Shown here: positions 774 to 24,192 of the stretch, piece after piece | How positions within the stretch are numbered: the first letter of the stretch is position 1 | How the letters are laid out: each line of letters begins with the position of its first letter | Virus record (IMG/VR): IMGVR_UViG_3300010151_000136 | Location: 1 to 25,883 of that record | Direction: 5' to 3' (one strand) | Length of the DNA stretch: 25,883 nucleotides | Source: a virus | The notes under the pieces: model-generated | The model's database searches: none | What the model saw: only the letters and a program-made list of their open reading frames with translations | Told to the model about the DNA's origin: nothing | Position numbers and translations under genes: made by a program

Positions 774-793
774 CTTTGAATTTGAATTCAAAG
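774..793. repeat. Perfect inverted repeat between scaffold stop and capsid gene
   Basis: A 7-base perfect inverted repeat (CTTTGAA/TTCAAAG) with a 6-base spacer covers the protease-scaffold stop codon and the start of the short intergenic gap. The spacer with the right arm also forms a 12-base palindrome (TTTGAATTCAAA, 781-792), so two pairings compete. It could be an RNA processing or attenuation site, or a protein-binding site, that sets capsid protein level apart from protease-scaffold level. The function is inferred from position only. Confidence 0.4.
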
Positions 794-5424: not shown

Positions 5425-5655
5425 TTATTCACCACTTAATTTTACTACTAATTCATCTATTTCTGACCAATCCATTTTAGCAATTGTATCTGAGTTAGGT
5501 ACACTACCTACATCTGCACTAATTCTCGGTACTATTCCTTCTACTTTAATTAGACCTGCCTTTAATAATACATTATCTGCATTAAAAACAGTTGTTTCTA
5601 ATCGCTTTACTCGGTCTACTAATTCTTTCATTAACATTATTAATTCTTCACTCAT
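5425..5655 (-). CDS. Small coiled-coil protein with C-terminal W-E-L-V motif
   Basis: This 76-residue protein has an N-terminal coiled-coil (residues 1-30, heptad-like Leu/Val spacing in KELVDRVKRLETTV), a short hydrophobic middle, and a C-terminus containing MDWSEIDELVVKL. That tail resembles the C-terminus of the protease-scaffold protein (LSWEEVNELVREV). Shared C-terminal helices in head-assembly proteins may bind the same partner, for example the capsid protein or portal; this is inference. The start overlaps the stop of the preceding 829-residue gene in an ATGA, typical of coupled translation. No family is recognised. Confidence 0.75.
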   Translation of the reverse strand: MSEELIMLMKELVDRVKRLETTVFNADNVLLKAGLIKVEGIVPRISADVGSVPNSDTIAKMDWSEIDELVVKLSGE

Positions 5656-10014: not shown

Positions 10015-11394
10015 TTATTCAACCCCACTCTCTAATTTATCCATTAAACTCATTTTACAATTATCGTGATATTTAACTACAACTTCAGGGTCAATACCAT
10101 ATTTATCAAATTCTGTAGTATTCCTAGCATCCTTCCAATTTTCATATTTAATCAATTTAAAAATTTCACCGAGTCGTGGTTTAGCCCACTCTTCCCTCTT
10201 GTGTTGTTGTTTGATACGGATTGCCTCTAATAATAGTTTCCCTTGTGCTTTCTTCATTCTTAGATGAGTCATACACTTATTTAAGATGGTTGTAATATCT
10301 CCCTGACTGTAAAAATTGAGTCTATGTTGACTTCTATTATTCTCTCCTACTTTTTGGTCAAGATGTAATCTGCCACATTTTAACTCCTTTTCTAATTCCT
10401 GAAAGAATGCTCTACCTCTATCACCTGTTGCTATCATACCTATTCTTGGTGCGTATGATGAATCCATTGTGATATATCCATCTGAATCAATAAATCCTGC
10501 CACATAGGAATATAAGTCTTTCTTAATTATATCTCTAACTAAATAATAATCATTATTTACTTTGGTAGCCTTAATTTTTCTTAACATTTTTGAAATAGAT
10601 TGAGGCGTTGATATTTTATTATACGCTTTAGGTAGTCTTGAATGAATTTCATTAGAAGATAGGCCGGGATTATTAATAAGAATATTTTTAATATTATCTT
10701 CTATCATTTCCTTTTTAGATTTTCTTAGAGATTGATGATTAATTTGTTTAAGAATTTTCCTAAATTCTTTTTTACAAGTGGCTATGTTAATTGTATGAGA
10801 AGAATATTCAGAACCATAATCCATCCCTTTTCTTTCTAAATCACTTTCCCACATTTTACATAATAAATCAATTAATTGTTCTCTCGTTTTTCCATCTTTA
10901 ATAGAATATAATTTGTATATATTATCAGGTTTTAATGTCATTTTCTTTAAAGGAATTTGGTATGGTTTTATCCAATATATTGAATCTACACACTTTTGAA
11001 TATAATATTCATATGCTGTAATTAAATGGTCAATACCTTTGAGAATTTTATTTCTTGCATCACCCTTTAAATTTCTACGCATATTGCGTAATTCCTTTAC
11101 TAATTCAGGAATTTGTTTATCTGCTACTATTGGCTCCATAGGATATTTGTAAATGTAATCATTGGCTTCAGTTAAATTAATTTTTAAATTTTTAGAAATT
11201 GTCTTAAGAATATCTATTTCATTTCCATACTGCATATTAATCCAAGATGGAAATTCTTCTTTCTTAAATCCTACTGTTTGTATTACTTGTTGACGTTGAG
11301 TATTGAGAGCATCTGTTGTTTCTTTAATTTCATCTACCCTTTCTTGTAAATCATCTACATCTATTTCTTCATCTTCTTTACTAATTAATACCAT
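10015..11394 (-). CDS. Winged-helix/LAGLIDADG endonuclease fusion protein
   Basis: The 459-residue protein has three visible parts. Residues 1-140 are a charged, helical region with no recognised family. Residues about 229-286 form a winged-helix DNA-binding domain (NPGLSSNEIHSRLP then PQSISKMLRKIKA and a YYL wing). Residues 290-400 are a LAGLIDADG homing endonuclease domain with a single motif, VAGFIDSDGYIT (297-308), holding the likely catalytic Asp. With one motif, such enzymes usually act as dimers. The ATG at 11394 overlaps the terminase stop by 14 bases and follows GGGGGTGG. It is a stand-alone gene, not an intein: no splice-junction residues are seen and the neighbouring terminase is intact. 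It may promote its own spread or protect this locus from related viruses; the first part could be an older viral protein captured in a fusion. Confidence 0.8.
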   Translation of the reverse strand: MVLISKEDEEIDVDDLQERVDEIKETTDALNTQRQQVIQTVGFKKEEFPSWINMQYGNEIDILKTISKNLKINLTEANDYIYKYPMEPIVADKQIPELVKELRNMRRNLKGDARNKILKGIDHLITAYEYYIQKCVDSIYWIKPYQIPLKKMTLKPDNIYKLYSIKDGKTREQLIDLLCKMWESDLERKGMDYGSEYSSHTINIATCKKEFRKILKQINHQSLRKSKKEMIEDNIKNILINNPGLSSNEIHSRLPKAYNKISTPQSISKMLRKIKATKVNNDYYLVRDIIKKDLYSYVAGFIDSDGYITMDSSYAPRIGMIATGDRGRAFFQELEKELKCGRLHLDQKVGENNRSQHRLNFYSQGDITTILNKCMTHLRMKKAQGKLLLEAIRIKQQHKREEWAKPRLGEIFKLIKYENWKDARNTTEFDKYGIDPEVVVKYHDNCKMSLMDKLESGVE

Positions 11395-12796
11395 ATATAC
11401 CACCCCCTATGTTAGTCTGAGGGGATGTAGGGTTAAAAAGGCTACTGCCATCTATATCAATAAATGTATCTGAAAATTGTTTAGTTGCGTAATTTGCCAA
11501 TGCTAATGCAATCACTATATCATCATGCGCTCCTACACCTTCAATTTTACCATTAGCATTGATACCAAATGCACCTAATTCCTGTTCAATTAATTTAGTG
11601 ACAGCCCTTGATGTTTCATCTTTCATAGGTAAAATCAATTTATGATTATCAATATTCATTTGTAGATTTAGAATAATCTCTTCCTTTTTCTTTCTACTCA
11701 TTGTAAATTCTCTAACTGGGAAATCTGAAATGCTTTTCAATTCCATAGCGAAGGCTTTAGCGAATGTGTTAGTTTCTATCATTACAATTTCAGGTCTGTA
11801 TCGTCTACATAATTCCATGATGTGTTGTATGTGTTCTCTAAAGTCTAACCCTCTTGCTCTAAGCATATGCACTACTTGTTTATTCATGTCATCATCAACT
11901 TCAATAACCATCATTACTGTAAAGTCACCCTTTGCTGATATAGCAGGGTCATATCCAATATAGTATCTATAACCCTCCCTATGAGATGAATGAAGCCTCG
12001 CTTCTTTATCCTTACAAGCCTTGATGTGTTCAGGGTCAAAGAGCATTGTGTTAGTACTGATAGGTACACACATATATTCTCTTGTGAATTTCATTGAACC
12101 AATTTCCATCTTACGGGCTTCTAATTTTTCTAAGTTCCATCGAGAAGACCATAAGGCTTCTCCTGCTGGATTGATTGCAGGGTATCTATGAACATTGTAT
12201 GCAGGGTTCTCTTCTAACTGTGCAAATATGTCTGTATAGGTGAATGGAGTGCCTATCATGCGTAGAGAGGCTGTATGGTGTAGTGTAGGTATCATATCAC
12301 CCCAAAACCAATCAGTAACTCTTTGAATAGCAGCCATTGAGAATTCCTTTAGTGGGTCATCGACAATAATTTCTTGTGGGTGAAGCCCACGGATTTGAGT
12401 ACCAATAGAACGCTCTAATATTTCATTACCATTTGTTAATCTCATGGAGCCAACAGCCCAACCTTGACGGGGCTTAAATTGTTTTAACTGTGGTATATTT
12501 GTAAACATTCTATCAATGTCTTTCATATGAACCATTGTCTGTTTATGGTTGGAGGAAATGTAAAGCATTTGATAAGGTGGTTCTTGAAAACATAATTGGT
12601 ATACTGCCCAAGCGTGAAAGAAAACTGATTTTCCGTGGTCCCTTGAACAGATAATTACTGTACGGTCTGTATTATAAACTTGTTCTAACCATTCTTTGTG
12701 AAAATCTGCTAATTCATAACCGAGAATTTTAGTAAAGAAATATGGGAAATTTCCTTTGGACATTTCCAAGTCCATTTCAGTTAATAAATCTTGCAT
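11381..12796 (-). CDS. terL: Terminase large subunit
   Basis: This is the motor and nuclease that packs viral DNA into the prohead. The ATPase half shows a Walker A-like CSRDHGKS (50-57), a Walker B hydrophobic strand ending in Asp-Asp (EIIVDD, 142-147) and a coupling motif near MIGTPF (180-185). The C-terminal RNase H-like nuclease half shows YIGYDPAIS with D283, VMIETN with E341, and GAHDDIVIA with D425/D426, the three acidic metal ligands. Length (471 residues) is normal and the protein looks complete. ATG 12796 follows AAGGTGA, which overlaps the preceding gene's stop. It is followed by the endonuclease fusion and the portal. A zinc protein at 20523-21185 is a candidate small subunit. Confidence 0.95.
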   Translation of the reverse strand: MQDLLTEMDLEMSKGNFPYFFTKILGYELADFHKEWLEQVYNTDRTVIICSRDHGKSVFFHAWAVYQLCFQEPPYQMLYISSNHKQTMVHMKDIDRMFTNIPQLKQFKPRQGWAVGSMRLTNGNEILERSIGTQIRGLHPQEIIVDDPLKEFSMAAIQRVTDWFWGDMIPTLHHTASLRMIGTPFTYTDIFAQLEENPAYNVHRYPAINPAGEALWSSRWNLEKLEARKMEIGSMKFTREYMCVPISTNTMLFDPEHIKACKDKEARLHSSHREGYRYYIGYDPAISAKGDFTVMMVIEVDDDMNKQVVHMLRARGLDFREHIQHIMELCRRYRPEIVMIETNTFAKAFAMELKSISDFPVREFTMSRKKKEEIILNLQMNIDNHKLILPMKDETSRAVTKLIEQELGAFGINANGKIEGVGAHDDIVIALALANYATKQFSDTFIDIDGSSLFNPTSPQTNIGGGIYGIN

Positions 12797-12800
12797 ATTT

Positions 12801-13073
12801 TCACCTTAATTTATAATATGTAGTTGTAGTACCTAATGTTTTTACTAGTCTTTTTTCATATTTAGAATGCTTTGACATATAAACTTTAACTTTATTATCT
12901 GTTGGAACATTTGAATATGCAGGGTATCTTCTTGTTTCATCTTGTTTTATCTTATCTATTAACTCATATACATCTACTATTATATCTCTCGACGTTCTTT
13001 CTTTTCCATCAGCCATTACTCTTTCAATAAATTCTTCAGTATTTTTAAATTTAATAACATCTTCCCAACTCAT
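12801..13073 (-). CDS. Small W-motif protein, possible winged helix
   Basis: The 90-residue product starts at ATG 13073 with MSWEDVIK, the shared N-terminal signature of this virus block. An upstream in-frame reading is rejected because the signature and the start context fix the start here. The remainder has three predicted helices and a C-terminal TTTYYKL strand, which together look like a small winged-helix fold (recognition helix around PTDNKVKVYMSKH). DNA binding is therefore possible, with low confidence. It directly precedes the terminase gene; the terminase ribosome site overlaps its stop codon. Confidence 0.75.
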   Translation of the reverse strand: MSWEDVIKFKNTEEFIERVMADGKERTSRDIIVDVYELIDKIKQDETRRYPAYSNVPTDNKVKVYMSKHSKYEKRLVKTLGTTTTYYKLR

Positions 13074-13074
13074 A

Positions 13075-13179
13075 TTATTCACCTTTCCCCACTCTACATT
13101 CAGTACACCAATCAGAAGGATTATCACTTCTCTTTTTACATGGTATTAATGAAATTAATTCTTTGACAATATCACACAT
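13075..13179 (-). CDS. Mini-protein (34 residues) with Cys pairs
   Basis: A 34-codon open frame overlaps the end of the preceding surface-protein gene by eight bases (shared GATGTGTGAT) and ends two bases before the next ATG. It contains C2, C14, and a WCTEC pair (C25, C28), which could bind zinc. It fills exactly the space between two real genes, and overlapping junctions of this kind are the rule in this operon. No family is recognised. It might be non-coding. Confidence 0.45.
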   Translation of the reverse strand: MCDIVKELISLIPCKKRSDNPSDWCTECRVGKGE

Positions 13180-13927
13180 CTTCTTCACCTTCTATATAGA
13201 CACCCATCCATGTTACTTCAGTAATCATTTCACCATCTTCATCAATTAAATAGGCGTATATATCATATCTACTTTCAGTAAAATTACCCAATGTCATATT
13301 GCGATAACCAATATCACCATTATAAACACTGTAATAATCAATAGAGAAATTGACAGGTTCTCCACCACTACTATTATTTTCATATGCTAAAAATTGTACT
13401 TCAACATCCTCAGTTTCTTCACAATCTAAATCTACATCATATTCAAATTTAAGTTCAGTATTATTATTCTGATATTCTAAATATCTATCATAAAAGAATG
13501 GTTCGCATTCTACCTCTTCTTCCTCATATTCACAAGAACCATCATCATAATTTGCATACTCATCATAATTTAAAGCATCATAATCTGTACAACCATAATA
13601 ATATTCTTCTTCTTGATATTCTTCTTGATATTTTTCTTCCCACATCCATTCATCATCACCATCACCAGCAGGAGTTAAATCAATAAATCCTCCTAATTCT
13701 AATCCACTTGTAGCAAGAAGTAAAAGAATAGGAATAAGAGCAGTAAGTAATTTATGTGTTGCTTTAGCAGCAACAGTAGCCTTCTCAATAGCAGTAGTAT
13801 TTTCTTGTAAATTGGATTGATTAAGTTTTCCATCATCTAGTAAATCTTCTATAATGTCTGCTTTATCTCTACCTGTTAACTCAGCAATTTCATCTGCACT
13901 ATCTAATGCTTCTTTAATATCGCTCAT
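13172..13927 (-). CDS. Membrane-anchored acidic surface protein with Cys/Asp repeat
   Basis: The 251-residue protein has a charged, probably cytoplasmic or intravirion N-terminus (1-58) and one hydrophobic membrane segment (about 59-82). An extremely acidic Tyr/Glu stretch (93-111) follows, then a single Cys/Asp repeat, GCTDYDALNYDEYANYDDG and onward (112-134). The GCTD...NY...DDGSC pattern is known from many secreted proteins of Bacteroidetes and marine archaea and is thought to bind calcium. Residues 142-245 alternate beta strands in an Ig-like pattern with several N-x-S/T sites, suggesting a glycosylated outer domain. Its start has one of the strongest ribosome sites in the window (AAGGAGGT). 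A role on the host or virion surface, for example attachment or superinfection exclusion, is inference. Confidence 0.8.
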   Translation of the reverse strand: MSDIKEALDSADEIAELTGRDKADIIEDLLDDGKLNQSNLQENTTAIEKATVAAKATHKLLTALIPILLLLATSGLELGGFIDLTPAGDGDDEWMWEEKYQEEYQEEEYYYGCTDYDALNYDEYANYDDGSCEYEEEEVECEPFFYDRYLEYQNNNTELKFEYDVDLDCEETEDVEVQFLAYENNSSGGEPVNFSIDYYSVYNGDIGYRNMTLGNFTESRYDIYAYLIDEDGEMITEVTWMGVYIEGEEDV

Positions 13928-13931
13928 AATT

Positions 13932-14516
13932 TTACCTCCTTAGTGTATTAAACCATTTTTCTAATTTTTCGATTGGTTGATAAACATACCACGTTTTACC
14001 GGTATCATCTAATCTATCCAAAGTCCAAGATGGTAGCCCTCTATGATTTTTATGAAAATCAGGTTCTGAATTATAAAATTCGCTATGTGTTATACCTCTA
14101 TTTAATGTGATAAGAAAGGGTCTATTAGTAGCCATAGATTTTGCTAATCCATTTCTTAATTTAGCCAATGTTGGATATACACCAAGTTTTCTAAAGTTAG
14201 GAATATCATCAGATGCAGTTAGACTTGTTCCTGATAAAGTATATGCTCCCCCATCTACTACCAAATCTTGATATTCTCCAGTGCCACAATAACCTATTAC
14301 TTTTCCTACCAAATCAGGTCTTTCTTTCCCATCAATAATTACTTTTGTAATTCTTGCAAAAAAATATTGTAGATTTGTTGAATCTTTAAATGTAACTGTT
14401 TCTTTAGTATTTCTTCTATTTCGCCTATAACCCCAATCATTTTCTATCATATTTAAAACAGTTTCTTCATCTATTGGACCATGAGTGCTAAATTTTAAAT
14501 CACCTTTCTTTATCAT
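13932..14516 (-). CDS. Unknown 194-residue protein, possibly acetyltransferase-like
   Basis: The ATG overlaps the previous stop (ATGA). The protein alternates strands and helices: an N-terminal helix, strands around YFFARI, LVGKVIGYCG and LVVDGGAYTLSG, a helix LAKLRNGLAKSMA, and a strand RPFLITL. This order is loosely like the GNAT acetyltransferase fold, but the signature acetyl-CoA loop (Q/R-x-x-G-x-G/A) is not clear, so the function is uncertain. If correct, it could modify a viral or host protein. It lies between an 842-residue unknown and the membrane-anchored surface protein. Confidence 0.6.
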   Translation of the reverse strand: MIKKGDLKFSTHGPIDEETVLNMIENDWGYRRNRRNTKETVTFKDSTNLQYFFARITKVIIDGKERPDLVGKVIGYCGTGEYQDLVVDGGAYTLSGTSLTASDDIPNFRKLGVYPTLAKLRNGLAKSMATNRPFLITLNRGITHSEFYNSEPDFHKNHRGLPSWTLDRLDDTGKTWYVYQPIEKLEKWFNTLRR

Positions 14517-17041
14517 CTAAATAGCCCCTTAATTTTATAAACAAGTTCGCTCGAAATACCATTTTCTACAGCAATAGTATTAAATGATGATTGAGAATTT
14601 ACAATATTGTATATATCTACACCATAAATATCTATATCATCTTCCTTCTTAATTTTGTTAATTACATATGATAAATTATCTATATCATCAATATCCATAT
14701 TAGAAATATAGATTTTTTTATTATTCATTTTTCTTATAATATCAGTTGCTTCTAACATAGCATGAGTAATTGGTCCTGCTAATTTTTTCCCACTACTCTT
14801 TAACATTCCTACAAGAGCATCGTGTTTTGTTCTTAACTTACCTCTTTGCCCCATATTTTCTTCTACATAGGTTACATATTCACGAGATTCTAACAACCCT
14901 AACAAATTATCTAATTTATAATTATTCTCCTTTTGAATTTTATTCCATTCGGGTAATGATTTACCACTCCATCTTTTCTCTTTAACGGTTTCAGGATTTT
15001 TAAAAGAATCCATAGCAATTTCATATAGAGAATCACCAAATATTGCAGTAACTTCTTCTATAATATCTTGTAGTGGAGTTTCTTCTTCAGATTCAATTGC
15101 GACACCCTGCCAAAAATTAATATAAGATTCTAGTCCTCTTTGAAATAAATTAACTAAATCTGCATCATAATATAATTCATCCGGTCTTCTTATCGCTTTC
15201 ATAAAATCAATTACATTTTGATAATCTGCAGAATCAATAAGAGGTTCGATACCTCTATTTATAGTTTTTCGAGCCTGTGCAGTTTTACTACCTGATAAAA
15301 TTTTAGGAAATTCTTTAAATTCATCTGATTCATAAAATTCTGGTACATCATCTAAAAATACATATTTTCCTGATAGTGGTTCAATATAATATTCAGTGAT
15401 TAATTGTAATATTTCATCTAAATCATTCATTCGGTCAACATCTTTTTGAGTCATTTTTGTAGGTAATGGTATTGATGTTCCACCTTGATTTAAAGAAGGA
15501 GATTTAGATGCTCCCCTTGCTGTTCTAACTTTAGTTAAAATCGGAATTGAACCTGATGTAATTTTTAATATTTCGCCTAGTTTTTTAAAGAATTTTCTTG
15601 TATTAGTATTAACAAAATTAACTGCTTCTCTATAAGCCCCTTCTTGTGTAAAATTTTCTACACGTATATTGCCGTTATAGTCAATATATTCTACATCTAT
15701 ACTGATATATGCTCTATCTAATACATCTATACTGATACTTTCTCCTATTACGGGCATATAATAATGACCCTCAATAATTAACGCTTGTGATTTTTTATAA
15801 TTATCTAAAAATGTATCAATTTCCCCATCTAATATACTTTCAATAGTTTCTAAAAGAGGTCCAGCAGTATAATTAAAATTTTCTTTAATTTGTTCTTTGG
15901 CCTTTTCGATTACATTATCAGTATAATCTTCATTAATTTTATTATTTTCAATTAATAGTAAAAATATTGGGTCCATTTTAACGATTTCTTTTTTAAATTT
16001 TCTTTCTGCTTCTTCAATATCATCTACTAAATCATCTGCTGCTGTTGGGTCAAAAGAACCACCTACTCCCGCTACTACTCCCTCTTCAGGAAAATCTCTT
16101 TCCTCTCTTACTGTGTCCAATATTTTTCCTGCTGCTTTACTTTGAGTTTCATATGCTTCTAATGATTTAGGTAATTGTTTCCCAATTGATTTTAAGAATT
16201 CATATACTAATCTATTAATTTTTGATTCTTCTACTAATTCTTTATTTTCAACCGCCGCTAATTGTAAAACATAATTAGGTAATTTAATATCTCTCATCGC
16301 TTCAGATAATTCTTTTACTGTTTCTGTTCTTGTATCAAATTGTTCAATGAAAGGTATAATATTTTCTAAAAAGGGACCGATATTATCAAAGTATTCAGCA
16401 AGTTTCTCAAAAGATTCATGTATACCATGCCAATATTTATAATATCCATCTCTTTCATTTGTACTTAGAGCATTTACGTTAACCAAAGTTCTTTCAATTT
16501 CTTTTAATGCTTCAAATTCTGATTTTGTATGTGTATATGCTTCAGGTTCTTCTTGTTCTAATATTGATAGTAATTTATTTATTACTTCTAATTCATCTTC
16601 TGTGAAAGGCTCATCGCCAGCAGGATTAGGTGCATTAGTTTTAGCATCATTTAAAAGTTCTATTAATTGTTCTTTCTTATTTATTGCTGCAACTGATAAT
16701 AATACATTCTCTATTGGTGTTTCTTTGATTTTATTAATGGTTTTATCAACGATAACGAATTTATTTCCACCACTTATTAAATCTCCCATCGGTGATTTAT
16801 GGATAGCAAAATTAGATGCTACTCCTATATGTGGATTAAAAATTTCACTCCTATCTGTTAATGTTTCATTTCTCGCTCTTAAGTATTTAATAAAATCTCT
16901 CCTTTTAATATCTACTTCTTCATTAACATTTGCTAATACAGCATCTATTGTTTTTGCCTTTGGTTCTCTTGGAGGTTCTGCACCATAATTTCTAGCAACA
17001 AGAGAATCAACAATATTTTGAACCTTTTCACTTAATTTCAT
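14513..17041 (-). CDS. Very large unknown helical protein (842 residues)
   Basis: I do not recognise this protein. It starts at ATG 17041 in an ATGA overlap with the preceding gene. The sequence is rich in Lys, Glu, Ile and Asn and predicted mostly helical, with a Gly/Pro hinge near GVVAGVGGSFDP (about 335), a more beta-rich block near 430-460 (HYYMPVIGESISIDV), a basic Ser/Pro linker around 505-525, and a helix-turn-helix-like end (NTIAVENGISSELVYKIK). It does not carry the W-motif. Together with the next upstream gene it makes up more than 1,500 codons of unassigned protein just before the terminase, so a tail or ejected internal protein is possible. That is inference. Confidence 0.75.
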   Translation of the reverse strand: MKLSEKVQNIVDSLVARNYGAEPPREPKAKTIDAVLANVNEEVDIKRRDFIKYLRARNETLTDRSEIFNPHIGVASNFAIHKSPMGDLISGGNKFVIVDKTINKIKETPIENVLLSVAAINKKEQLIELLNDAKTNAPNPAGDEPFTEDELEVINKLLSILEQEEPEAYTHTKSEFEALKEIERTLVNVNALSTNERDGYYKYWHGIHESFEKLAEYFDNIGPFLENIIPFIEQFDTRTETVKELSEAMRDIKLPNYVLQLAAVENKELVEESKINRLVYEFLKSIGKQLPKSLEAYETQSKAAGKILDTVREERDFPEEGVVAGVGGSFDPTAADDLVDDIEEAERKFKKEIVKMDPIFLLLIENNKINEDYTDNVIEKAKEQIKENFNYTAGPLLETIESILDGEIDTFLDNYKKSQALIIEGHYYMPVIGESISIDVLDRAYISIDVEYIDYNGNIRVENFTQEGAYREAVNFVNTNTRKFFKKLGEILKITSGSIPILTKVRTARGASKSPSLNQGGTSIPLPTKMTQKDVDRMNDLDEILQLITEYYIEPLSGKYVFLDDVPEFYESDEFKEFPKILSGSKTAQARKTINRGIEPLIDSADYQNVIDFMKAIRRPDELYYDADLVNLFQRGLESYINFWQGVAIESEEETPLQDIIEEVTAIFGDSLYEIAMDSFKNPETVKEKRWSGKSLPEWNKIQKENNYKLDNLLGLLESREYVTYVEENMGQRGKLRTKHDALVGMLKSSGKKLAGPITHAMLEATDIIRKMNNKKIYISNMDIDDIDNLSYVINKIKKEDDIDIYGVDIYNIVNSQSSFNTIAVENGISSELVYKIKGLFR

Positions 17042-19176
17042 TCTTCTTCACCTACTTCTTGTTGTAAATATCCAGTATCTTCTAAATATTTTTGTACTGT
17101 AATTTTTTGATTATTATGTTGTACTCTATGTTTTGTATATTTATCTGATGTGTCTTCACCAATCGCAGTAATATAATTTATAAGTTCTCCAGAAACTCTA
17201 TCAGATAAATTTTGAAGTAAATTAGATAATGTATTGTGTGCTGTATCTAAATCTGCCTGAATACCTAATTTATTATTAACGTAGTGCATTCCATCTACAT
17301 CTTGTATATATTCTTTAGAAGGATGCATAGCAAATTCCATTAATTCTTCTTTATCATCAGGCATATCCAAACCTCTTTTTTTACTAATTTCTATTAATAA
17401 ATTATTTAAATTATCATAAAAGTTATCACTTATTTCAGTCATCGCTAATGTATAATCACTTAAATGTTCTTTACTATAAAAATCTTTCACGATGGTTATG
17501 ATTGCTCTTAAAGAATCTATAAATGATTGTCTATTATTACTTGCGAATAATTTACCTTGAGGTATAAAATCTACCCAATTTCCTGTGGCTCCCCTTAATG
17601 GGATAATCCTTTTAAATTCCTGCTCAAATTCTTCTTTAGAATCCGATTCATAGAATAATAAGAATAGAAGAGAAAATACATTTTGTTTAAATTTACCTCT
17701 AATGTTAAAAATATCTACTATTTCATTGAAATTAATTTCTCTCGATTCTCCCATTTGGAATTTTATTTCTCCGGGTCTAACTATCAATTCTGACTCTTGA
17801 TAAATTTGTTTAATTTGATTTATAATTTCTGCTTGTTCATCTGCTGGTGCTTCTTTTAATTGTTCTTTTAATGGTAATGCTCTTTCATCAGCAACAGTTT
17901 TTTTCTCTGTGTATTTTTTCCAAGCCTCATCAAATAAATCACTACCCCCACTCTTTAATTTATTTCTAATATAGTCAATAGCCTGTTCCTTTAAAGCACT
18001 TTGAACATCTCTTTCTTCAGGGGTAGCATTTTTCATCTCTTCAGAGGGCTTTAATTTATATTGTCCTATTTTAAAAGGTTCTGGATTAGTGTCCATTTCC
18101 CTTTTAATAAAATCTAGCGCAAAATTTGTTTTTAATTCTGCCTGTCTATGTTTAAGAGTTAAACCCTTTCTTCCCATATCGACAACTCTCATAGCATTAT
18201 TAAGAGTAGTTCCACTTGATTTAATTGATATATCCCATAAAATCTTAATCGCTTTATCTTTATATGAATTTAATTCAGTATCTGAAAGTATAGTGGATTT
18301 ATGTAATACGTTAATTAATTTTTTAAATTCTGTCATAGATAAAGTTTCTATTTTAGCATCTATGTTAGGCATGGGGAATGCCACTTCTGTTGTAATATCA
18401 GATACAGTTTCTATTTGAGATGTTTTCTTTTTTCTTGGGCCAAATGGTTCTTCTTCAGGTGCTCCAAAAGGTGTAGTTACTTCCCTAGTCCTTTGTCTAA
18501 TATCTCCTTCTTCTGTTGCGACCAATTTATCTTTTTTACTTCTTGTAGTAATTTCCATTGTGGTTGGATTATTACCAACACCATATTTATATTCAAATAT
18601 ATTACTGATTTTTTTATCTATTCCTGCATCTTCATCCGGTACTTCTCTTTTAATATTATCAATGGCCTTACCAAAACCTTCAGGAACATCTATAATATTA
18701 TTTAATTTACGCATCCAACTTTGAGTTGCGCTACTAAAATTACCTTGAGTTATTTCATTAACATAACGAGCAATAGCATAAAAAGAATCAATATCTTTCC
18801 TTTCTACAAAATCATTAACTAAAGGTTGTAATGTTTCCTTTACTTCCTGTTGTCCTGTGATTTCAATATTAAAGTGAGATTTGAAAGATTTTGCCTTTTC
18901 TAATCTTTTTTTAATTTCTACAAGTGAAATCTTTTTAACTCTTCTTGTCCCAAAATATAATTGTTGGGCTAATCCTTCAACTATTGATGGTCTTCTTTTA
19001 GGTAAATTTGCTAAATCTGTTTCTAAATTATTTATAACTCTATCTAATTCTCTTGCTTTTCTTGCAGATTCTTTTTCATCTAGGGCTTTAATATCTTCTA
19101 CGGATGGAAAAACACCAGTCTTAATTGAATTGGACCAATTGCCCACACCCGCTTTTAATAATAATTGCCAAGACAA
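17038..19176 (-). CDS. Large W-motif protein (712 residues), unknown function
   Basis: Translation begins at TTG 19176, chosen because it follows AAGGTGATAA and because the product then begins with MSWQLLLKAG, the signature of this block. The protein is mostly charged helices, with a mixed-charge Pro-rich stretch around 230-260 (TPFGAPEEEPFGPRKKK), and no membrane segment or enzyme motif visible. It is the largest of the proteins carrying the signature. If the signature directs proteins into the head, this would be a candidate internal or ejected virion protein, like the large ejection proteins of T7 or P22 in size but with no sequence link seen. Confidence 0.78.
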   Translation of the reverse strand: MSWQLLLKAGVGNWSNSIKTGVFPSVEDIKALDEKESARKARELDRVINNLETDLANLPKRRPSIVEGLAQQLYFGTRRVKKISLVEIKKRLEKAKSFKSHFNIEITGQQEVKETLQPLVNDFVERKDIDSFYAIARYVNEITQGNFSSATQSWMRKLNNIIDVPEGFGKAIDNIKREVPDEDAGIDKKISNIFEYKYGVGNNPTTMEITTRSKKDKLVATEEGDIRQRTREVTTPFGAPEEEPFGPRKKKTSQIETVSDITTEVAFPMPNIDAKIETLSMTEFKKLINVLHKSTILSDTELNSYKDKAIKILWDISIKSSGTTLNNAMRVVDMGRKGLTLKHRQAELKTNFALDFIKREMDTNPEPFKIGQYKLKPSEEMKNATPEERDVQSALKEQAIDYIRNKLKSGGSDLFDEAWKKYTEKKTVADERALPLKEQLKEAPADEQAEIINQIKQIYQESELIVRPGEIKFQMGESREINFNEIVDIFNIRGKFKQNVFSLLFLLFYESDSKEEFEQEFKRIIPLRGATGNWVDFIPQGKLFASNNRQSFIDSLRAIITIVKDFYSKEHLSDYTLAMTEISDNFYDNLNNLLIEISKKRGLDMPDDKEELMEFAMHPSKEYIQDVDGMHYVNNKLGIQADLDTAHNTLSNLLQNLSDRVSGELINYITAIGEDTSDKYTKHRVQHNNQKITVQKYLEDTGYLQQEVGEEE

Positions 19177-19186
19177 ATTATCACCT

Positions 19187-19366
19187 TCAGACTAAATATA
19201 CTGAGGCTGCTATAATAATAGGTAGTGCTATTAAAATATATTTCTTATACTGGGCTACTTTAGATAGTATCATTTTAGATTTAGATTCATTTATTAAACC
19301 TAAGTCTTCTATTATATCTACTACATCTTCAATTAAATCTTCTGCTGCTTCTACTGTTTCTTCCAT
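19187..19366 (-). CDS. Small tail-anchored membrane protein
   Basis: The 59-residue product (ATG 19366 behind AGGTGA) has an acidic N-terminal helix, a short basic loop (SKSKM, AQYKKY) and a C-terminal hydrophobic segment (YILIALPIIIAASVYLV) that ends at the stop. This is the layout of a tail-anchored membrane protein. It could be a holin-like or host-membrane factor; nothing more specific is visible. A GTG nine bases upstream is an alternative start. Confidence 0.7.
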   Translation of the reverse strand: MEETVEAAEDLIEDVVDIIEDLGLINESKSKMILSKVAQYKKYILIALPIIIAASVYLV

Positions 19367-19371
19367 AATAT

Positions 19372-19665
19372 TCACCTATAAAATTTTCTTGCTTGTGGTG
19401 GTAATTCCCAATAATGTACTAAATCACCCAATTCTTTTGAATATTTTTTACCCTCTTCTGTTTTAGGTTGCCATGACATCCTTAGATTTTTTAAATCCAT
19501 TAGAAGTCCATAACTTTTATTGTTATCCCACTTTTCAACAAGTTCAAATAACTCCCCTTTGTATAATTCACCTTCTTCATTAGTAGGTTGCCACCCTTCT
19601 AACAATTCTTTGGTTTCATTTAATATTGCAGTTCCACCAAATTTTAGTATCTCCTGCCATTTCAT
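19372..19665 (-). CDS. W-motif protein with two 40-residue repeats
   Basis: The 97-residue protein starts with MKWQEILKFG in an ATGA overlap with the previous gene. After the signature it holds a clear internal duplication: WQPTNEEGELYKGELFELV ending at W46, and WQPKTEEGKKYSKELGDLV ending at W86, spaced exactly 40 residues apart. The shared pattern is W-Q-P-x2-E-E-G-x2-Y-x2-E-L-x2-L-V-x2-W. The repeated units may bind a repetitive partner or pair with each other. No known family is recognised. Confidence 0.8.
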   Translation of the reverse strand: MKWQEILKFGGTAILNETKELLEGWQPTNEEGELYKGELFELVEKWDNNKSYGLLMDLKNLRMSWQPKTEEGKKYSKELGDLVHYWELPPQARKFYR

Positions 19666-19889
19666 TTTTTCCTCGCCTCATCTCTTCTTCTATTATATTC
19701 GTCAACAGCCTTCATATAACATTTTTCACAGACATATTTATTATCGGGTAATTTATAATCGGGGCTGTTCTGACATTTTGCACATCGGATTCTATGACGG
19801 TCTATTTCTCCCCTAGTATCAATACTTTCGTCTATTCTAATTTCTTCTTTTTTAATTTCATTATATTTTGCTATTGTTTCCCAACTCAT
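19662..19889 (-). CDS. W-motif zinc-ribbon mini-protein (75 residues)
   Basis: The product begins MSWETIAKYN. It then has a charged linker and a four-Cys site, C36-x2-C39 and C54-x2-C57, that should bind one zinc ion, followed by a basic helical tail (NRRRDEARKK). Such small treble-clef or ribbon-like modules can bind nucleic acid or protein. The start context GATTAAAATGAGTTGG is shared exactly with the preceding gene's start, which suggests gene duplication or shuffling. Confidence 0.78.
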   Translation of the reverse strand: MSWETIAKYNEIKKEEIRIDESIDTRGEIDRHRIRCAKCQNSPDYKLPDNKYVCEKCYMKAVDEYNRRRDEARKK

Positions 19890-19890
19890 T

Positions 19891-20145
19891 TTAATCGCCT
19901 CTTTCAGGGTACTCAGTAACCTTTTCTAATTCTGTTCTAAGATAATTAAACATATCTTCTATATTATTGAATTCTTTTCTTAGTGGTTGTGCATCACTTT
20001 GGGAATATCTAAATTGTACTACATATTTTTGTACATCTTGTACCATGTATGTGCCTATTTCAAAAGATTTACCAACATAAGGAGGTGATGCAATACCACC
20101 AGCACTTTCATGTAATGGTTTTTTGATAATATTTGTCCAACTCAT
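19891..20145 (-). CDS. W-motif protein (84 residues), unknown function
   Basis: The start is ATG 20145, giving MSWTNIIKKP; upstream readings overlap the 29-residue gene and lack support. After the signature there is a Gly/Pro stretch (GGIASPPYVGK), then strands around GTYMVQDVQKYVVQFRYS and a C-terminal helix (NIEDMFNYLRTELEKV). This beta-beta-helix plan is compact and globular. No zinc site and no recognised family. Confidence 0.72.
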   Translation of the reverse strand: MSWTNIIKKPLHESAGGIASPPYVGKSFEIGTYMVQDVQKYVVQFRYSQSDAQPLRKEFNNIEDMFNYLRTELEKVTEYPERGD

Positions 20146-20146
20146 T

Positions 20147-20236
20147 TTAATCATATTTCCTTTTCGTTGGGTGAACCCAGTCTGAATCATCTTCTTCATC
20201 TCCAGACCATGCTTTTAGTATATCTTTCCAACTCAT
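20147..20236 (-). CDS. W-motif mini-protein (29 residues)
   Basis: A 29-codon frame beginning MSWKDILKAW, followed by an acidic stretch (SGDEEDDSDW) and a basic end (PTKRKYD). Its start overlaps the stop of the upstream mini-gene (AATGAG) and its stop abuts the next start. It consists of little more than the signature, which makes it the smallest carrier and a useful test case: if real, the signature alone must have a use. Confidence 0.6.
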   Translation of the reverse strand: MSWKDILKAWSGDEEDDSDWVHPTKRKYD

Positions 20237-20340
20237 TTTTTACACCCCATAATTAAATCTTTACCTTCTTTTTCTTCTGCTTTGTCTAACTCTTTAGACC
20301 ATAAATCAAACCACGAATCTAAATATATACATCTTGTCAT
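20233..20340 (-). CDS. Mini-protein (35 residues), unknown
   Basis: The ATG at 20340 follows AAGGAGATGTTAAC, a good ribosome site, and the frame ends overlapping the next start. The sequence has Trp and acidic residues (SWFDLWSKELDKAEEKEG) and two Cys (C4, C33). It lacks the exact W-motif but its SWFDLW core could be a diverged copy. No family is recognised. Confidence 0.5.
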   Translation of the reverse strand: MTRCIYLDSWFDLWSKELDKAEEKEGKDLIMGCKK

Positions 20341-20352
20341 GTTAACATCTCC

Positions 20353-20526
20353 TTAAACATCATCTGTTTCGTCTCCGCCGCCTACATCTACTGAATCTTG
20401 TTCTCGAATACATTCCATACATCGTTCATATCTATATTCAGAGCCTCCAATTTTTTTAGCCATGAAAGTTTTTCCACATTTTCTACATTTACGCTTAACG
20501 TTTTTTAATATGTCTGTCCAACTCAT
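20353..20526 (-). CDS. W-motif zinc mini-protein (57 residues)
   Basis: The ATG overlaps the stop of the possible small terminase gene (ATGA). The product begins MSWTDILKNV and continues with C14-x2-C17 and C36-x2-C39, one probable zinc site of the ribbon type, then an acidic Gly-rich tail (GGGDETDDV). Zinc ribbon plus signature is the commonest combination in this block. Confidence 0.7.
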   Translation of the reverse strand: MSWTDILKNVKRKCRKCGKTFMAKKIGGSEYRYERCMECIREQDSVDVGGGDETDDV

Positions 20527-21185
20527 GTTAACATCTCCGCTACATCATCTCTTATCTCTGTCCATATCTCAGGGTACTTCTGTATAAGAACCTTTTGTAT
20601 AACCTCAACCTGTTGAACAATAATCGTTTCTTCTCTTTTATGTACTAACTGTCCCTTAAACTCTAACATGTATTTTAGCGACTCTCTAATTTCCTTCGCC
20701 AATTTGGTTAATGAGTCTATCTGTTTAGTGGATAGTTCTGTCTCATTTAAAAGTTCCTCTACCTTGTCTTGTAAAATAGACACATTACCCTGTAATATGT
20801 CAATTTCGTTTATATCTATTCGTGCTATATCCATCGCTGCGTGTTGCTGCACAATTGGTTTCAAGTGTTTAGATATATGTAATTGTATTTTATCTACTGA
20901 ACAGTCAAGTAATTCTGCTGCATTAGATGGTGTTAATCCTCCCTCCATTATTCTAACTTCTAAATCTGCACGATTAGGATGAGTACAAAGAACACAGGAT
21001 GGATTAGAATTGTCGTGATAGGCTCCTAAATGATTCTGCATATGCTTTTTTGAAGTACCTGAAAACCAATTATTCTGTTTATCTAAATCATCACAGGATA
21101 AATTACCTGATAGAATATCTTCTTCTAATCCATCACGTTCTTCATGTTGACAAAGTTTGCAGGATTTTCTAATTTTTCTAGTCAT
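20523..21185 (-). CDS. Double zinc-knuckle DNA-binding protein, possible small terminase
   Basis: The 220-residue product (ATG 21185) has two copies of a Cys2-His2-like module: C9-x2-C12-x-H14 with H48-x3-H52, and C64-x2-C67-x-H69 with H103-x3-H107. The second copy reads CVLCTHPNRADLEVRIMEGG then a helix-turn-helix-like stretch (SNAAELLDCSVDKIQLHI) before the closing His pair. This CxxCxHPxRxxLE...H...HL plan occurs in phage small DNA-binding proteins. The second half is a long coiled-coil and a helical end (KYPEIWTEIRDDV), which fits an oligomeric small terminase. The distance from the large terminase gene (about 8 kb) and the absence of a firm family match leave a general transcription factor possible. 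Confidence 0.75.
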   Translation of the reverse strand: MTRKIRKSCKLCQHEERDGLEEDILSGNLSCDDLDKQNNWFSGTSKKHMQNHLGAYHDNSNPSCVLCTHPNRADLEVRIMEGGLTPSNAAELLDCSVDKIQLHISKHLKPIVQQHAAMDIARIDINEIDILQGNVSILQDKVEELLNETELSTKQIDSLTKLAKEIRESLKYMLEFKGQLVHKREETIIVQQVEVIQKVLIQKYPEIWTEIRDDVAEMLT

Positions 21186-21186
21186 A

Positions 21187-21435
21187 TTAATCCCACTCTG
21201 CTTCTTCCATTTCTGCCCGAATCTTTTCTTCACATTCTTTACAATAAGCGTCATCTTTATCTATTTTTTTCTTTTCACCACAACGCTTACATTCTTTATC
21301 AACGAGGTCGCTATCATCCCATTCTTTTTGTCGCCCCTCTTCTTCTTCTTTTTCTCTCGCCAATCTTTCTTTTCTCTTTCTGCGAATATTATCTATACTC
21401 CAATCACTAGATTTTAAAATATCTTTCCAACTCAT
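21187..21435 (-). CDS. W-motif zinc-ribbon protein (82 residues)
   Basis: From ATG 21435 the product begins MSWKDILKSS. A strongly charged helix follows (RRKRKERLAREKEEEEG), then C49-x2-C52 and C65-x2-C68, a likely zinc ribbon (CKRCGEKK, YCKECEEK), and an acidic helical end. The next gene starts directly after its stop (TAATATG). A structural or nucleic-acid binding role is possible; no family is recognised. Confidence 0.75.
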   Translation of the reverse strand: MSWKDILKSSDWSIDNIRRKRKERLAREKEEEEGRQKEWDDSDLVDKECKRCGEKKKIDKDDAYCKECEEKIRAEMEEAEWD

Positions 21436-21440
21436 CTTAA

Positions 21441-21584
21441 TCACTTCTTATATGAAAATTTATCATTCAATTTATCTTTCCTTTTATTACAAGCACCACA
21501 TGGTTTAATGCCAACTGCTTTTGTCATGCGAGCAATTGTATCTCCTACACCTTTATCATCTTTAAGTATTTTTTTCCAATTCAT
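21441..21584 (-). CDS. W-motif mini-protein with CxxC and RKxKLN tail (47 residues)
   Basis: The product begins MNWKKILKDD, then KGVGDTIARMTKAVGIK, then CGACNKRKDKLNDKF. The order G-x-G-D-T-I, G-I-K and C-x2-C-x2-R-K-x-x-x-L-N resembles a small conserved protein that I have seen in many tailed phages, where it has no assigned function; this is memory, not a search. Here the N-terminal signature appears fused in front of that known module, which would mean the signature is a movable tag. It lies between the 365-residue and the 82-residue genes. Confidence 0.72.
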   Translation of the reverse strand: MNWKKILKDDKGVGDTIARMTKAVGIKPCGACNKRKDKLNDKFSYKK

Positions 21585-21585
21585 A

Positions 21586-22683
21586 TCAGCACTTCCTTAA
21601 TATTTGAGTCCACGACTTAAGTACTAAACCTGTGGGTGCGTAATTTTCAGAATCTTTTTCTGTCGAACTACCGGGTTTTTGATGAGTATTTATTTCATCA
21701 CCTAATACTTCCTTAATCATTCTATTTAACGCTAAGTTATTTGATGGAAATTTAAATCTAATCTGTTTAATTTTTTCTAATCCTACTACTTCTTCAAATC
21801 CTCTTGCTACCTCTAATATTTTTGCTTCATCTTCATTAGCAATAGCATAAACATGATTAGAAAATGCTGCATTTAATCTATCTTTTACAGGTGCTCTTGA
21901 TTTTCCCTTTGGATAAATAGAAGGGTCGTTAATTACTTTTTTTACATGTTCTATAACACTTGGAATTGTAGCAAATGCAGGTGGCCCTTTAGAATTATTT
22001 TCTACTGTAATAACTGTGTCATCTCCCGGCTTTATTTTTTTAACCGCATCAATAGCCATTCTAGCAATAATCATTATACTATCTTCTGATTCTTCTGATA
22101 TTGCTTGCCACATTGGAGGTTTAGCCTCCCCTTTCTTTTTACTAGTCCATTCTGGTTGTGCCGTAGCCATTTGTCCTTTAAATCCTTCCTTGTGGTCTAA
22201 GGCCCATGCCACATAATCATTATATGCTTCTGTTCTATAATGACCATATACTACTCCCCTTGTAATAGAGGGTTTTGTTTCATCCTCGGTTTCCTTGAAT
22301 GCTACCACTGTATGAAATTTAATATTACGTGGATTCCAATCCTTTCTTTTTAGAATATCTTTCATTTGTTTAGTATCTTTTTCTAACTGTGCTTTATGTT
22401 TGTATAGTATAGCATCGCCATCTAGTATTTCACTTATAGATTCTATTAAAAGTCCTAAACCTTCAATTGACCTTGCTTGGTCCCTCGCATAAGTGTCTTC
22501 CCCATGTTCTAATATTTGGTCTAATGCTGTTTTAGGTAAATTTTGTAATGGTCCTCCACCAACAACACCCCATTGAGCACCCTTATCCCATTTAATTTTC
22601 CAAGCATCCCATTTTGCTTGTACTTGTCTGAATTTACCTCTTTGTGTAAAATTCTCTACTGTTCCCCATCTTGACATATTCAT
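21586..22683 (-). CDS. Unknown 365-residue protein with C-terminal W-motif
   Basis: The ATG overlaps the previous stop (ATGA). The N-terminus is Trp- and Lys-rich (MSRWGTVENF, KWDAWKIKWDKG). The middle alternates strands and helices around HTVVAFKETED and ITRGVVYGHYRTEAYNDYVAWALD, and a hydrophobic helix near SIMIIARMAIDAV. The protein ends in LKSWTQILRKC, a copy of the signature at the extreme C-terminus instead of the N-terminus. No enzyme motif is recognised. It follows an acidic W-motif protein in the same operon. Confidence 0.78.
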   Translation of the reverse strand: MNMSRWGTVENFTQRGKFRQVQAKWDAWKIKWDKGAQWGVVGGGPLQNLPKTALDQILEHGEDTYARDQARSIEGLGLLIESISEILDGDAILYKHKAQLEKDTKQMKDILKRKDWNPRNIKFHTVVAFKETEDETKPSITRGVVYGHYRTEAYNDYVAWALDHKEGFKGQMATAQPEWTSKKKGEAKPPMWQAISEESEDSIMIIARMAIDAVKKIKPGDDTVITVENNSKGPPAFATIPSVIEHVKKVINDPSIYPKGKSRAPVKDRLNAAFSNHVYAIANEDEAKILEVARGFEEVVGLEKIKQIRFKFPSNNLALNRMIKEVLGDEINTHQKPGSSTEKDSENYAPTGLVLKSWTQILRKC

Positions 22684-23858
22684 TCCTCATCTTCATCATC
22701 ATCATAAGTTATATGATGTTCAGCAGGGCTAAATGTAGGAGAACTTGTTAATCCTGCTCCTGTTTTTTTCTGTAATATAGATTGCCAGTTGAGTTCTCCG
22801 GTATATTCGCTGTTGTGTTCGCTTGCATATTTGTCTTCAAATTCATCTCTCCTTTCTTTTTGTTTATCGGGGTCTAACATTTCACTTTCTGATAATTCCT
22901 GTACTGGATATTCGTTTGGGTTTGATACTTTTGGATTTAATTCCATTTGTCCTTGCATCACTGGTAATTTAATAAGGAATGATTGTGTAACCCATCGTGC
23001 TAATTCTGAAATTTCTTTTTGAATAACAGGTTCTTTTAATTTATCTTTAATTGCCTTCCCCATATTTGTAGCCTTTACTTGACCATTACTTTCAGATACA
23101 GCAACAATGTCACTTTCTAATTCATTAATAGTCCTATCTTCTTCCTCATCTATTTCTTCTTTTATTGCTCCCCAAGCACCGCCACCTTGACCGCCCCAAA
23201 ATCCTTTAGGTAAAGGCTTTTCAGGGTCTAATCTAATTTCTTCTGTATCTTCATCATCTTTATATCTATACGCTTCATCATATTTATGTCTCACAAAATC
23301 ATAACATTCATCAAATATTGTAGAGATATATTTTTCTGCTGCTCTGTAAAGTGTTTCAGTTATTTTTTGGTATTCATTAGTCCTAAATAATGCATCAATA
23401 TTGGTTTCAGAATCTTCTGCTGCTTCTCCTTGCGGTCCTGTTTTAAGTGTATCTTTCATCCATTGTGATATACCTTCTTGAAAAAAATCAGTAGCCAAAT
23501 TTATCCCTAATCTTTTAATCATTTTCATATTTTTAGTTGGAACCTTTTTCATTGGTTTAAAACCCCTACCATCTTCATCCATTTGTGTAACTTCATTTTG
23601 ACCAACACTTATATTAATAAGCATTCGTTCAAACATCTGTTCAATAGTAGTGAACCAATTAGTAATTTCTGCTTCATTTATCATACCGTAATCTTCTACA
23701 AATGTATCATCAGGGTAGATTCTCCTTGTAGGTGATTCTTCAGTAGGTTCTTCACCTTCAGGAATATCATATTCATATCGAGGATGTTTTGTTTGTTCAG
23801 GATAATCCTCTTCTTCCTCATCCTCATCTTCTTCTTTTAATATATTCTTCCAAGTCAT
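22680..23858 (-). CDS. Acidic W-motif protein (392 residues) with second internal motif
   Basis: The product begins MTWKNILKEE and continues with a long Asp/Glu run. Residues 60-180 are helical and amphipathic, the middle has a Gly-rich patch (GFWGGQGGGAWG, about 220), and a second signature copy, LNWQSILQKK (W358), lies 30 residues before an acidic C-terminus (YDDDEDEE). High acidity and helical content suit a scaffold-like or DNA-mimicking virion protein, but no family is recognised. Two signature copies in one protein suggest either fusion of two tagged genes or two binding sites for one partner. Confidence 0.78.
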   Translation of the reverse strand: MTWKNILKEEDEDEEEEDYPEQTKHPRYEYDIPEGEEPTEESPTRRIYPDDTFVEDYGMINEAEITNWFTTIEQMFERMLINISVGQNEVTQMDEDGRGFKPMKKVPTKNMKMIKRLGINLATDFFQEGISQWMKDTLKTGPQGEAAEDSETNIDALFRTNEYQKITETLYRAAEKYISTIFDECYDFVRHKYDEAYRYKDDEDTEEIRLDPEKPLPKGFWGGQGGGAWGAIKEEIDEEEDRTINELESDIVAVSESNGQVKATNMGKAIKDKLKEPVIQKEISELARWVTQSFLIKLPVMQGQMELNPKVSNPNEYPVQELSESEMLDPDKQKERRDEFEDKYASEHNSEYTGELNWQSILQKKTGAGLTSSPTFSPAEHHITYDDDEDEE

Positions 23859-24004
23859 TTTTCATCAACTGCCTTTTTTAATAATTCTATTATACTCAAT
23901 GGTATACCTAATTCTTTTCCTTTCTTTGTAAAGGCTTTTAGTGCTGCTTCCCAATCTTCAATATCTTCATTAGATACCGATTTTAAATAATCTTTCCATG
24001 TCAT
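23855..24004 (-). CDS. W-motif mini-protein (49 residues), helical
   Basis: The product begins MTWKDYLKSV and is otherwise two amphipathic helices (DIEDWEAALKAFTKKGKEL and LSIIELLKKAVDEK) joined by GIP. Start and stop both overlap or abut neighbours: start context GATTAAAATGACATGG as in other carriers, and stop in an ATGA overlap with the next gene. It may act as a small adaptor. No family is recognised. Confidence 0.68.
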   Translation of the reverse strand: MTWKDYLKSVSNEDIEDWEAALKAFTKKGKELGIPLSIIELLKKAVDEK

Positions 24005-24009
24005 TTTAA

Positions 24010-24192
24010 TCATCTACAAGGTACGCTTAGGTGGTATTTACATAATTTTTGCTTACATCTATTACATTTTAATACTGGTTTTCTATTACAATAATCACAA
24101 GTTTCTTGTTTTTCTTTGAATGTCATTCTTTCTTCGACGTGTTCTGATTCAACAGGAACCGCCATAATTTTTAATGTGTTTTCCCAAGTCAT
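24010..24192 (-). CDS. W-motif zinc-finger mini-protein (60 residues)
   Basis: The product begins MTWENTLKIM and ends with a dense zinc cluster: C32-x2-C35, C43-x2-C46, C51-x2-H54 and C59. The spacing C-x2-C...C-x2-C-x4-C-x2-H resembles B-box or AN1-type fingers, which usually bind protein. Its start overlaps the preceding stop (ATGA), and its first 21 coding-strand bases after position 24190 nearly repeat a segment inside the preceding gene. Confidence 0.75.
   Translation of the reverse strand: MTWENTLKIMAVPVESEHVEERMTFKEKQETCDYCNRKPVLKCNRCKQKLCKYHLSVPCR

Follow-up and report, generated by a model that had tools for sequence, protein, structure and literature searches.

The 25,883-nucleotide virus record IMGVR_UViG_3300010151_000136 of IMG/VR (positions 1 to 25,883, hereafter the window) carries on its minus strand twelve genes whose otherwise unrelated products begin with variants of one octapeptide, the tag, with the consensus M-S-W-x-D-I-L-K. 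The likely explanation, in our view, is that the tag serves as an N-terminal propeptide for capsid targeting: it would dock cargo proteins within the prohead, and the S78 prohead protease would probably remove it by a cut behind Lys8. A capsid-directed role as such can be proposed with rather high confidence, while cleavage after Lys8 is a more modest lean. We infer from sequence the location of the cargo in the virion, its docking partner, its cleavage and its ejection. A first-pass annotation of the window had suggested a role like that of the signal used by phage T4 for its internal proteins. This role, which we also infer, is supported by the restriction of the tag to the late/structural strand, its clustering at head genes, the tag-like C-termini of the protease and of a core protein, and by cargo homologous to cyanophage head-region proteins in which the tag replaces other N-termini. 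Beyond that suggestion, Lys8 has the look of a cleavage site for the prohead protease, a W-x-x-[IVL] helix seems to form the docking core, and the tag differs from the T4 sequence.

In the mechanism that we propose, residues 2 (Ser/Thr/Asn) and 5 (Asp/Asn/Glu) would cap a short amphipathic helix, and Trp3 and Ile6-Leu7 would dock in a receptor inside the prohead, for which the most likely candidates are the major capsid protein (MCP), on its inner face, and the scaffold core. The cargo would borrow an address that the core itself may use, in the W-x-x-[IVL] C-terminal helices of the protease-scaffold and of a 76-amino-acid (aa) protein. After assembly, the S78 protease would most likely cut behind Lys8, at a hydrophobic-hydrophobic-Lys (hhK) site, and the same enzyme would cut a matching hhK site in the MCP N-terminus. 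The freed cargo would lie inside the head, packaged with the DNA, and would probably be ejected into the host.

The tag is a widespread feature of one group of viruses. Using the terminase large subunit (TerL) of the window (11381..12796, minus strand; PF17289, 4e-10) as a query, we found at least 80 relatives in IMG/VR, at 68-89% identity. In a sample of ten contigs (nine relatives and the window), genes were scored with the pattern M-x(0-3)-W-x-x-[ILVF]-[ILVM]-[KR]. It was present at the N-terminus of 178 of the 657 structural-strand genes and of none of the 425 replication-strand genes, so that the search of related viral genomes suggested by the first-pass annotation did return many open reading frames (ORFs) with this start. 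Shuffling the first 12 residues gave a mean of 1.3 and a maximum of 6 tagged (of 200), against the 178 observed. Tagged genes number up to about 26 per contig; they concentrate near the genes for TerL, portal and other head proteins and are sparse in the tail module. The tagged proteins of at least 40 aa (n=135) form 73 unrelated body clusters, 52 of which are singletons. A loose DNA version of the tag matched in all 18 related contigs tested, on a single strand in each, while its reversed control gave 3 matches in all over the same contigs. A strict DNA pattern hit at least 119 loci of IMG/VR, most with several tags on one strand, and only 2 chance-like matches, both in rumen bacteria, in 257 Gb of prokaryote genomes. 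The tag is therefore viral and lineage-specific rather than a host habit, and a host-wide motif was rejected on this count; the possibility, raised in advance, of a tag equally common in host genes is not what we found.

What is conserved is the peptide. Across 735 distinct tags collected from relatives, the Trp (Trp3) is shared by all, and residue frequencies are 0.55 for Ser2 (Asn and Thr also occur), 0.64 for Asp/Asn5, 0.79 for Ile6, 0.74 for Leu7 and 0.94 for Lys8. Ser/Thr/Asn2 together with Asp/Glu/Asn5 look like a helix capping box. The register of the Trp varies between residues 2, 3, 4 and 5 (MWEDILK, MSWKDILK, MNNWKNILK, MNKSWSDILK), and the tags make use of every codon for Leu (six), Ile (three) and Lys (two). 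This codon freedom and the variable register indicate that the constraint acts on the peptide and not on the DNA. A DNA- or RNA-level element, such as a start-codon context, a regulatory site or a recombination anchor for swapping cargo genes, could explain why AGT dominates the Ser2 codons (364 of 703 tags) and would suit cargo genes that vary from genome to genome. However, synonymous variation is free at Ile6, Leu7 and Lys8, codon changes are more often synonymous in the tag than in the bodies (113:215 vs 1126:4310), the distance of the Trp from the ATG is not fixed, and C-terminal and internal copies exist. We rejected the DNA-element reading on the free codon choice and the variable Trp register, and regard any nucleic-acid explanation as extremely improbable. 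A Shine-Dalgarno-like sequence lies upstream of 548 of the 703 tags.

Conservation stops abruptly behind Lys8. The information content is 2.7 bits at Lys8 and drops to 0.3 bits at the next position (9), Lys outnumbers Arg by 692:11 at position 8 against a background of 1.9:1, and there is no conserved Glu at positions 9-16. Homologs of an 831-aa protein begin either with the tag or with a leader of ~30 residues, and some leaders end in the same ILK (for example, MSWQLILK followed by EIPF vs NYEDILK followed by AINF). Similar junctions are found in the head proteins. The N-terminus of the MCP, a candidate propeptide (668..751, minus strand; the gene is cut by the contig end), ends in GIMK28, and in 49 of 49 distinct relatives [IL][LIM]K is invariant and followed by [AGSQ], within an otherwise variable linker. 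The adjoining gene (791..2038, minus strand) encodes the S78 prohead protease, identified by its Peptidase_S78 domain (PF04586, 7.3e-11), its match to phrog_23555 (head maturation protease) and its position next to the MCP gene; by alignment it continues into a scaffold-like coiled-coil C-terminal region. Three of its Lys residues, K23, K215 and K376, are invariant in variable linkers and follow a rule similar to hhK, the sites being [VI]LK (one VIK) and IAK/ITK. In the alignment, Lys376 (911..913, minus strand; [IV]xK) is a candidate autocleavage site, at which a cut would release the C-terminal helix. Taken together, the Lys8 preference, the stop behind it, the hhK junctions shared by MCP and protease, and the leaders ending in ILK argue that the S78 protease would cut after hhK. 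The HK97 protease gp4 reportedly cuts behind a lysine.

Alternatively, the tag could dock without being cut and remain on the inner shell as an encapsulin-like cargo-loading peptide, with Lys8 engaged in a salt bridge. The compact motif, its N-cap and amphipathic pattern, and the presence of a W-x-x-[IVL] helix on the protease and the core protein would all suit such retained docking, but the Lys:Arg ratio and the dead stop fit a protease P1 residue, MCP N-termini and the linkers of the protease all keep the hhK junction, and tags and long leaders share their ILK end point. We consider retention unlikely. The octapeptide could also be a prohead-protease recognition site and nothing else, with the cargo entering through its body or by binding DNA. 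MCP, protease and core protein do have hhK sites without a Trp, and internal tags are present at the junctions of fused cargo, where the tag often stays at the joint (GEITMSWKNVLKQKKLSPKQKK in G002). Yet the MCP sites need neither Trp3 nor an N-cap, whereas a Trp is common to all tags at varying distance from the start, and the bodies have no other feature in common; we give this explanation very little weight.

The docking half of the proposed propeptide recurs at two C-termini. The protease ends in a tag-like helix, SWEEVNELVREVKS (794..835, minus strand), and in 32 of 32 relatives this C-terminus retains the Trp and reads [ML][ST]W-x-[EQD]-...; the helix is predicted at residues 403-415, starting at its Trp, with a predicted local distance difference test score (pLDDT) of about 80, in a model whose remainder is of low confidence (overall pLDDT 47). 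The 76-aa core protein (5425-5655) has the C-terminal tail MDWSEIDELVVKLSGE (5428..5475, minus strand). Its Trp is found in all 56 distinct homologous tails, which follow [DSEA]W-x-x-[IL]-..., and most have hhK[SA]G. Both helices match the tag at the N-cap, at the Trp and at Trp+3. The protease and the 76-aa protein both have to get into the prohead, and their C-terminal address may be what the tag mimics. Targeting elsewhere in the host cell, to a membrane, to a replication or assembly site or to degradation, would be in keeping with the ability of an amphipathic N-terminus with Trp to bind membranes and with the PAP2-like nature of some cargo. This is a poor match for a tag that is absent from replication-strand genes and host genomes, for a tag-like helix on a protease that must act inside the prohead, and for cargo shared with T4-like head-region genes, and we deem it quite improbable. 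The protease gene may also yield a free scaffold protein from a probable nested start: a conserved internal in-frame ATG (Met186; 1481..1492, ATG 1481-1483, minus strand) is preceded by GGTGAT, and a Shine-Dalgarno motif precedes Met186 in 12 of 24 relatives, compared with 18 of 281 other internal Mets.

The closest functional parallel is the capsid-targeting sequence (CTS) of phage T4, which needs its first ten residues; of these, positions 4 and 7 serve in targeting, and 8 and 10 in processing (PMC9026906). The two are alike in occupying ~8-10 N-terminal residues of several unrelated proteins (in T4 the internal proteins IPI, IPII, IPIII and Alt), in having aromatic/hydrophobic anchors three apart (T4 residues 4 and 7; here W3 and I6), and in the basic nature and variable set of their cargo; removal by the prohead protease would probably be a further likeness. 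They differ in sequence and in cut site, [LI]xE in T4 and hhK here. The T4 CTS is found on few genes, whereas the tag marks far more of them per contig in putatively archaeal viruses with an S78/HK97-type protease, where a tag-like helix is also placed at the protease C-terminus. The T4 parallel drawn in the first-pass annotation thus holds for a shared peptide on unrelated proteins and fails for the T4 sequence and the [LI]xE cleavage motif, both absent. We rejected membership in the T4 CTS, as the tag ends in ILK: it would act like a CTS but is not one, because sequence and cleavage motif differ.

The cargo provides a second link to T4-like phages. Two tagged cargo proteins of relatives match proteins of T4-like cyanophages. 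In one search the alignments start at residue 10-11, just beyond the tag, with 74-83% identity in the best records; in another the DACYxKV cargo domain has 365 matching records at 60-90% identity. In the cyanophages (T4-GC 119, phrog_727) the same basic domains (RIPRKKGQPANSKKHSDLYTDENPKG... and DACYxKVxxRYxxWPSAYASGALV, best matches mostly 74-85% identical) are likewise encoded next to terminase and head genes, but they are strung in one large protein with apparently gp21-like [LIM]xE joints, while here many of them have small genes to themselves, each with its SW..ILK tag. The T4-GC 119 proteins of L243, L244 and L247 resemble polyproteins of cationic modules with such [LIM]xE sites between them, which suggests that they are processed to internal head peptides. 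In P-TIM68, a homolog of the cargo starts MMKSFIDFSEN, resembling the T4 CTS. Another tagged cargo protein, found in L226, aligns over 78 aa with the C-terminus of gp137 of the cyanophage S-CREM2, at 42% identity; gp137 was detected in purified virions by mass spectrometry with 4 peptides (PMC10665884, Table 3). Pfam named few cargo proteins (PAP2, and weakly DUF5754 and DUF6782). Tagged PAP2-superfamily phosphatases occur at L088:2687-3742 and L101:11844-12683, and the former has an internal tag-like SWEDFIFK followed by a cationic Cys-rich tail. Tandem tagged paralogs at L087:3832-9600 (G001 83832-89600) have ~20 further residues in common after the tag (NIQISSQRTSSKDYVKPDE), with a variant of this array sequence in other genomes (NQIQVGRQKLRSDNQPLPDD).

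Other shells offer partial analogies. Like the tag in the role proposed for it, the cargo-loading peptides of encapsulins are short and linear and direct unrelated cargo into a shell of the HK97 fold; they are mostly C-terminal, non-cleaved and cellular. In herpesviruses, the protease-scaffold fusion UL26/UL26.5 contains a nested start for the scaffold, is cut at internal sites and ends in a short tail that docks to the shell. The protease-scaffold described here recalls it in its probable nested start, candidate internal cut sites and putative C-terminal docking tail, although the sequences differ, and herpesviruses are not known to use their tail motif as the N-terminus of many cargo proteins. 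In giant phages (SPN3US, phiKZ), internal head proteins are made with propeptides at the N-terminus, and the protease has one at its C-terminus (PMC10052503). Unlike the tag, these propeptides are mostly long, have an A-x-E cleavage motif (SPN3US) and no common octapeptide.

Several observations weigh against a cleaved capsid-targeting propeptide. The two C-terminal helices have just the W-x-x-[IVL] part in common with the tag and lack its ILK ending. Structure modelling pointed to no receptor, the model of the MCP having a pLDDT of 32. Lys is common in AT-rich genomes, and hhK sites are short. The support from gp137 is thin (4 unique peptides, 4.1% coverage, peptide region not specified), and its similarity to the L226 protein is inflated because the shared domain is basic. 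Finally, SW..ILK N-termini are absent among the head-region proteins examined in HVTV-1 (Druskaviridae), an isolated relative; this family was accordingly dropped as an experimentally tractable tagged relative.

A broader picture can be drawn, which we put at slightly under even chances. One docking code, an N-capped W-x-x-[IVL] helix, would run the entire interior of head assembly in this virus order, on the C-termini of protease-scaffold and core protein and on the N-termini of up to about 26 swappable cargo proteins per genome. It would go together with a Lys-specific cut at hhK by which both shell and cargo mature; cargo modules would move between archaeal viruses and T4-like cyanophages and be re-addressed by the local tag. 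If the propeptide reading is true, the tag would be, as far as could be found, the first capsid-targeting sequence recognized in archaeal viruses, an address label that marks many more proteins than its T4 counterpart does. A literature search that did not cover the main magrovirus papers, Philosof 2017 and Prabhu 2025, found no earlier description of it. Genes without a name, dozens of them in viruses abundant in the ocean, would become predicted virion cargo, cut sites of the prohead protease could be predicted, and a simple sequence rule would help to single out, in uncultured viruses, virion proteins that are injected or condense DNA. The virion could carry a changing set of helper proteins, as that of T4 does with an unrelated label, and unrelated viruses would seem to have evolved the same solution, an aromatic-x-x-hydrophobic address with a protease cut, for the same cargo domains. 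The tag might also serve for loading proteins into archaeal virus capsids.

In the window itself, the twelve tags begin minus-strand ORFs exactly where the first-pass annotation had placed them, on proteins of 29 to 712 aa as it reported. Its pattern M-[STNK]-W-x-x-[ILV]-[LI]-K strictly fits nine of the twelve; the exceptions are MTWENTLK and MTWKDYLK, which break it at position 6, and MSWETIAK, which does so at position 7. Eleven ORFs start with ATG and one (19176) with TTG. From the upper end, MTWENTLK (24169..24192) begins a 60-aa zinc-ribbon-like protein (24010-24192) and MTWKDYLK (23981..24004) a 49-aa conserved protein (23855-24004), whose homologs retain the tag even within fusions (MKWTDYLK in G004). 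MTWKNILK (23835..23858) opens a 392-aa protein (22680-23858); relatives keep this tag despite bodies only 24-31% identical, and by its sequence the protein has a second, internal tag-like motif near its C-terminus, NWQSILQKK (22764..22790). A 365-aa conserved protein (21586-22683) instead carries a tag-like C-terminus, KSWTQILRKC (21589..21618), immediately behind a conserved GL-x-LK junction. The following tags are MNWKKILK (21561..21584) on a 47-aa protein (21441-21584), MSWKDILK (21412..21435) on an 82-aa zinc-ribbon-like protein (21187-21435), MSWTDILK (20503..20526) on a 57-aa CxxC protein (20353-20526), MSWKDILK (20213..20236) on a 29-aa protein (20147-20236), MSWTNIIK (20122..20145) on an 84-aa protein (19891-20145), MSWETIAK (19866..19889) on a 75-aa CxxC protein (19662-19889) and MKWQEILK (19642..19665) on a 97-aa repeat protein (19372-19665). 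MSWQLLLK (19153..19176), with the TTG start, belongs to a conserved 712-aa protein (17038-19176) whose relatives begin MSWISLLK, MSWISILK, MNWKLILK or MWFSILK, and MSWEDVIK (13050..13073) to a 90-aa protein (12801-13073) adjoining TerL. These tags and tag-like motifs are all on the minus strand.

The window is a linear fragment of 25.9 kb with 31% G+C, one strand of which bears nearly all genes, in the order MCP N-terminus, S78 prohead protease, DNA-ligase-like protein, portal (8364..10013, minus strand; PF04860, 1.7e-11), TerL and then the tagged block. Relatives of 90.8-95.6 kb have structural and replication clusters on opposed strands. Among them, G001 encodes an SU10-type MCP, PolB, an ERCC4 nuclease, a clamp-loader ATPase and an ATP ligase, and the MCP of L084 matches PF17236 SU10_MCP. 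Magrovirales are tailed viruses linked to Poseidoniales, defined by genomes of about 90-110 kb in which one strand bears the head/tail cluster and the other the replication cluster (PMC10768690, PMC12999244). Their gene set (HK97-fold MCP, portal, prohead protease, PolB, clamp loader and ATP-dependent ligase) was found, with the replication genes in G001, and by these genome features the virus of the window fits a Magrovirales-like marine archaeal tailed virus. One tagged contig (L142 and L166) has 184,733 bases, ~2x the usual genome length; it may have been assembled as a head-to-tail dimer or come from a relative with a larger genome. The 913-aa DNA-ligase-like nucleotidyltransferase (2083-4824, minus strand) lies in the head operon between protease and portal and is a possible virion enzyme; relatives also encode a separate canonical ligase in the replication module (G001 64711-66219). 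A 460-aa protein with a LAGLIDADG-like stretch, YVAGFIDSDGYI (10015-11403, minus strand), is found between TerL and portal in every relative checked.

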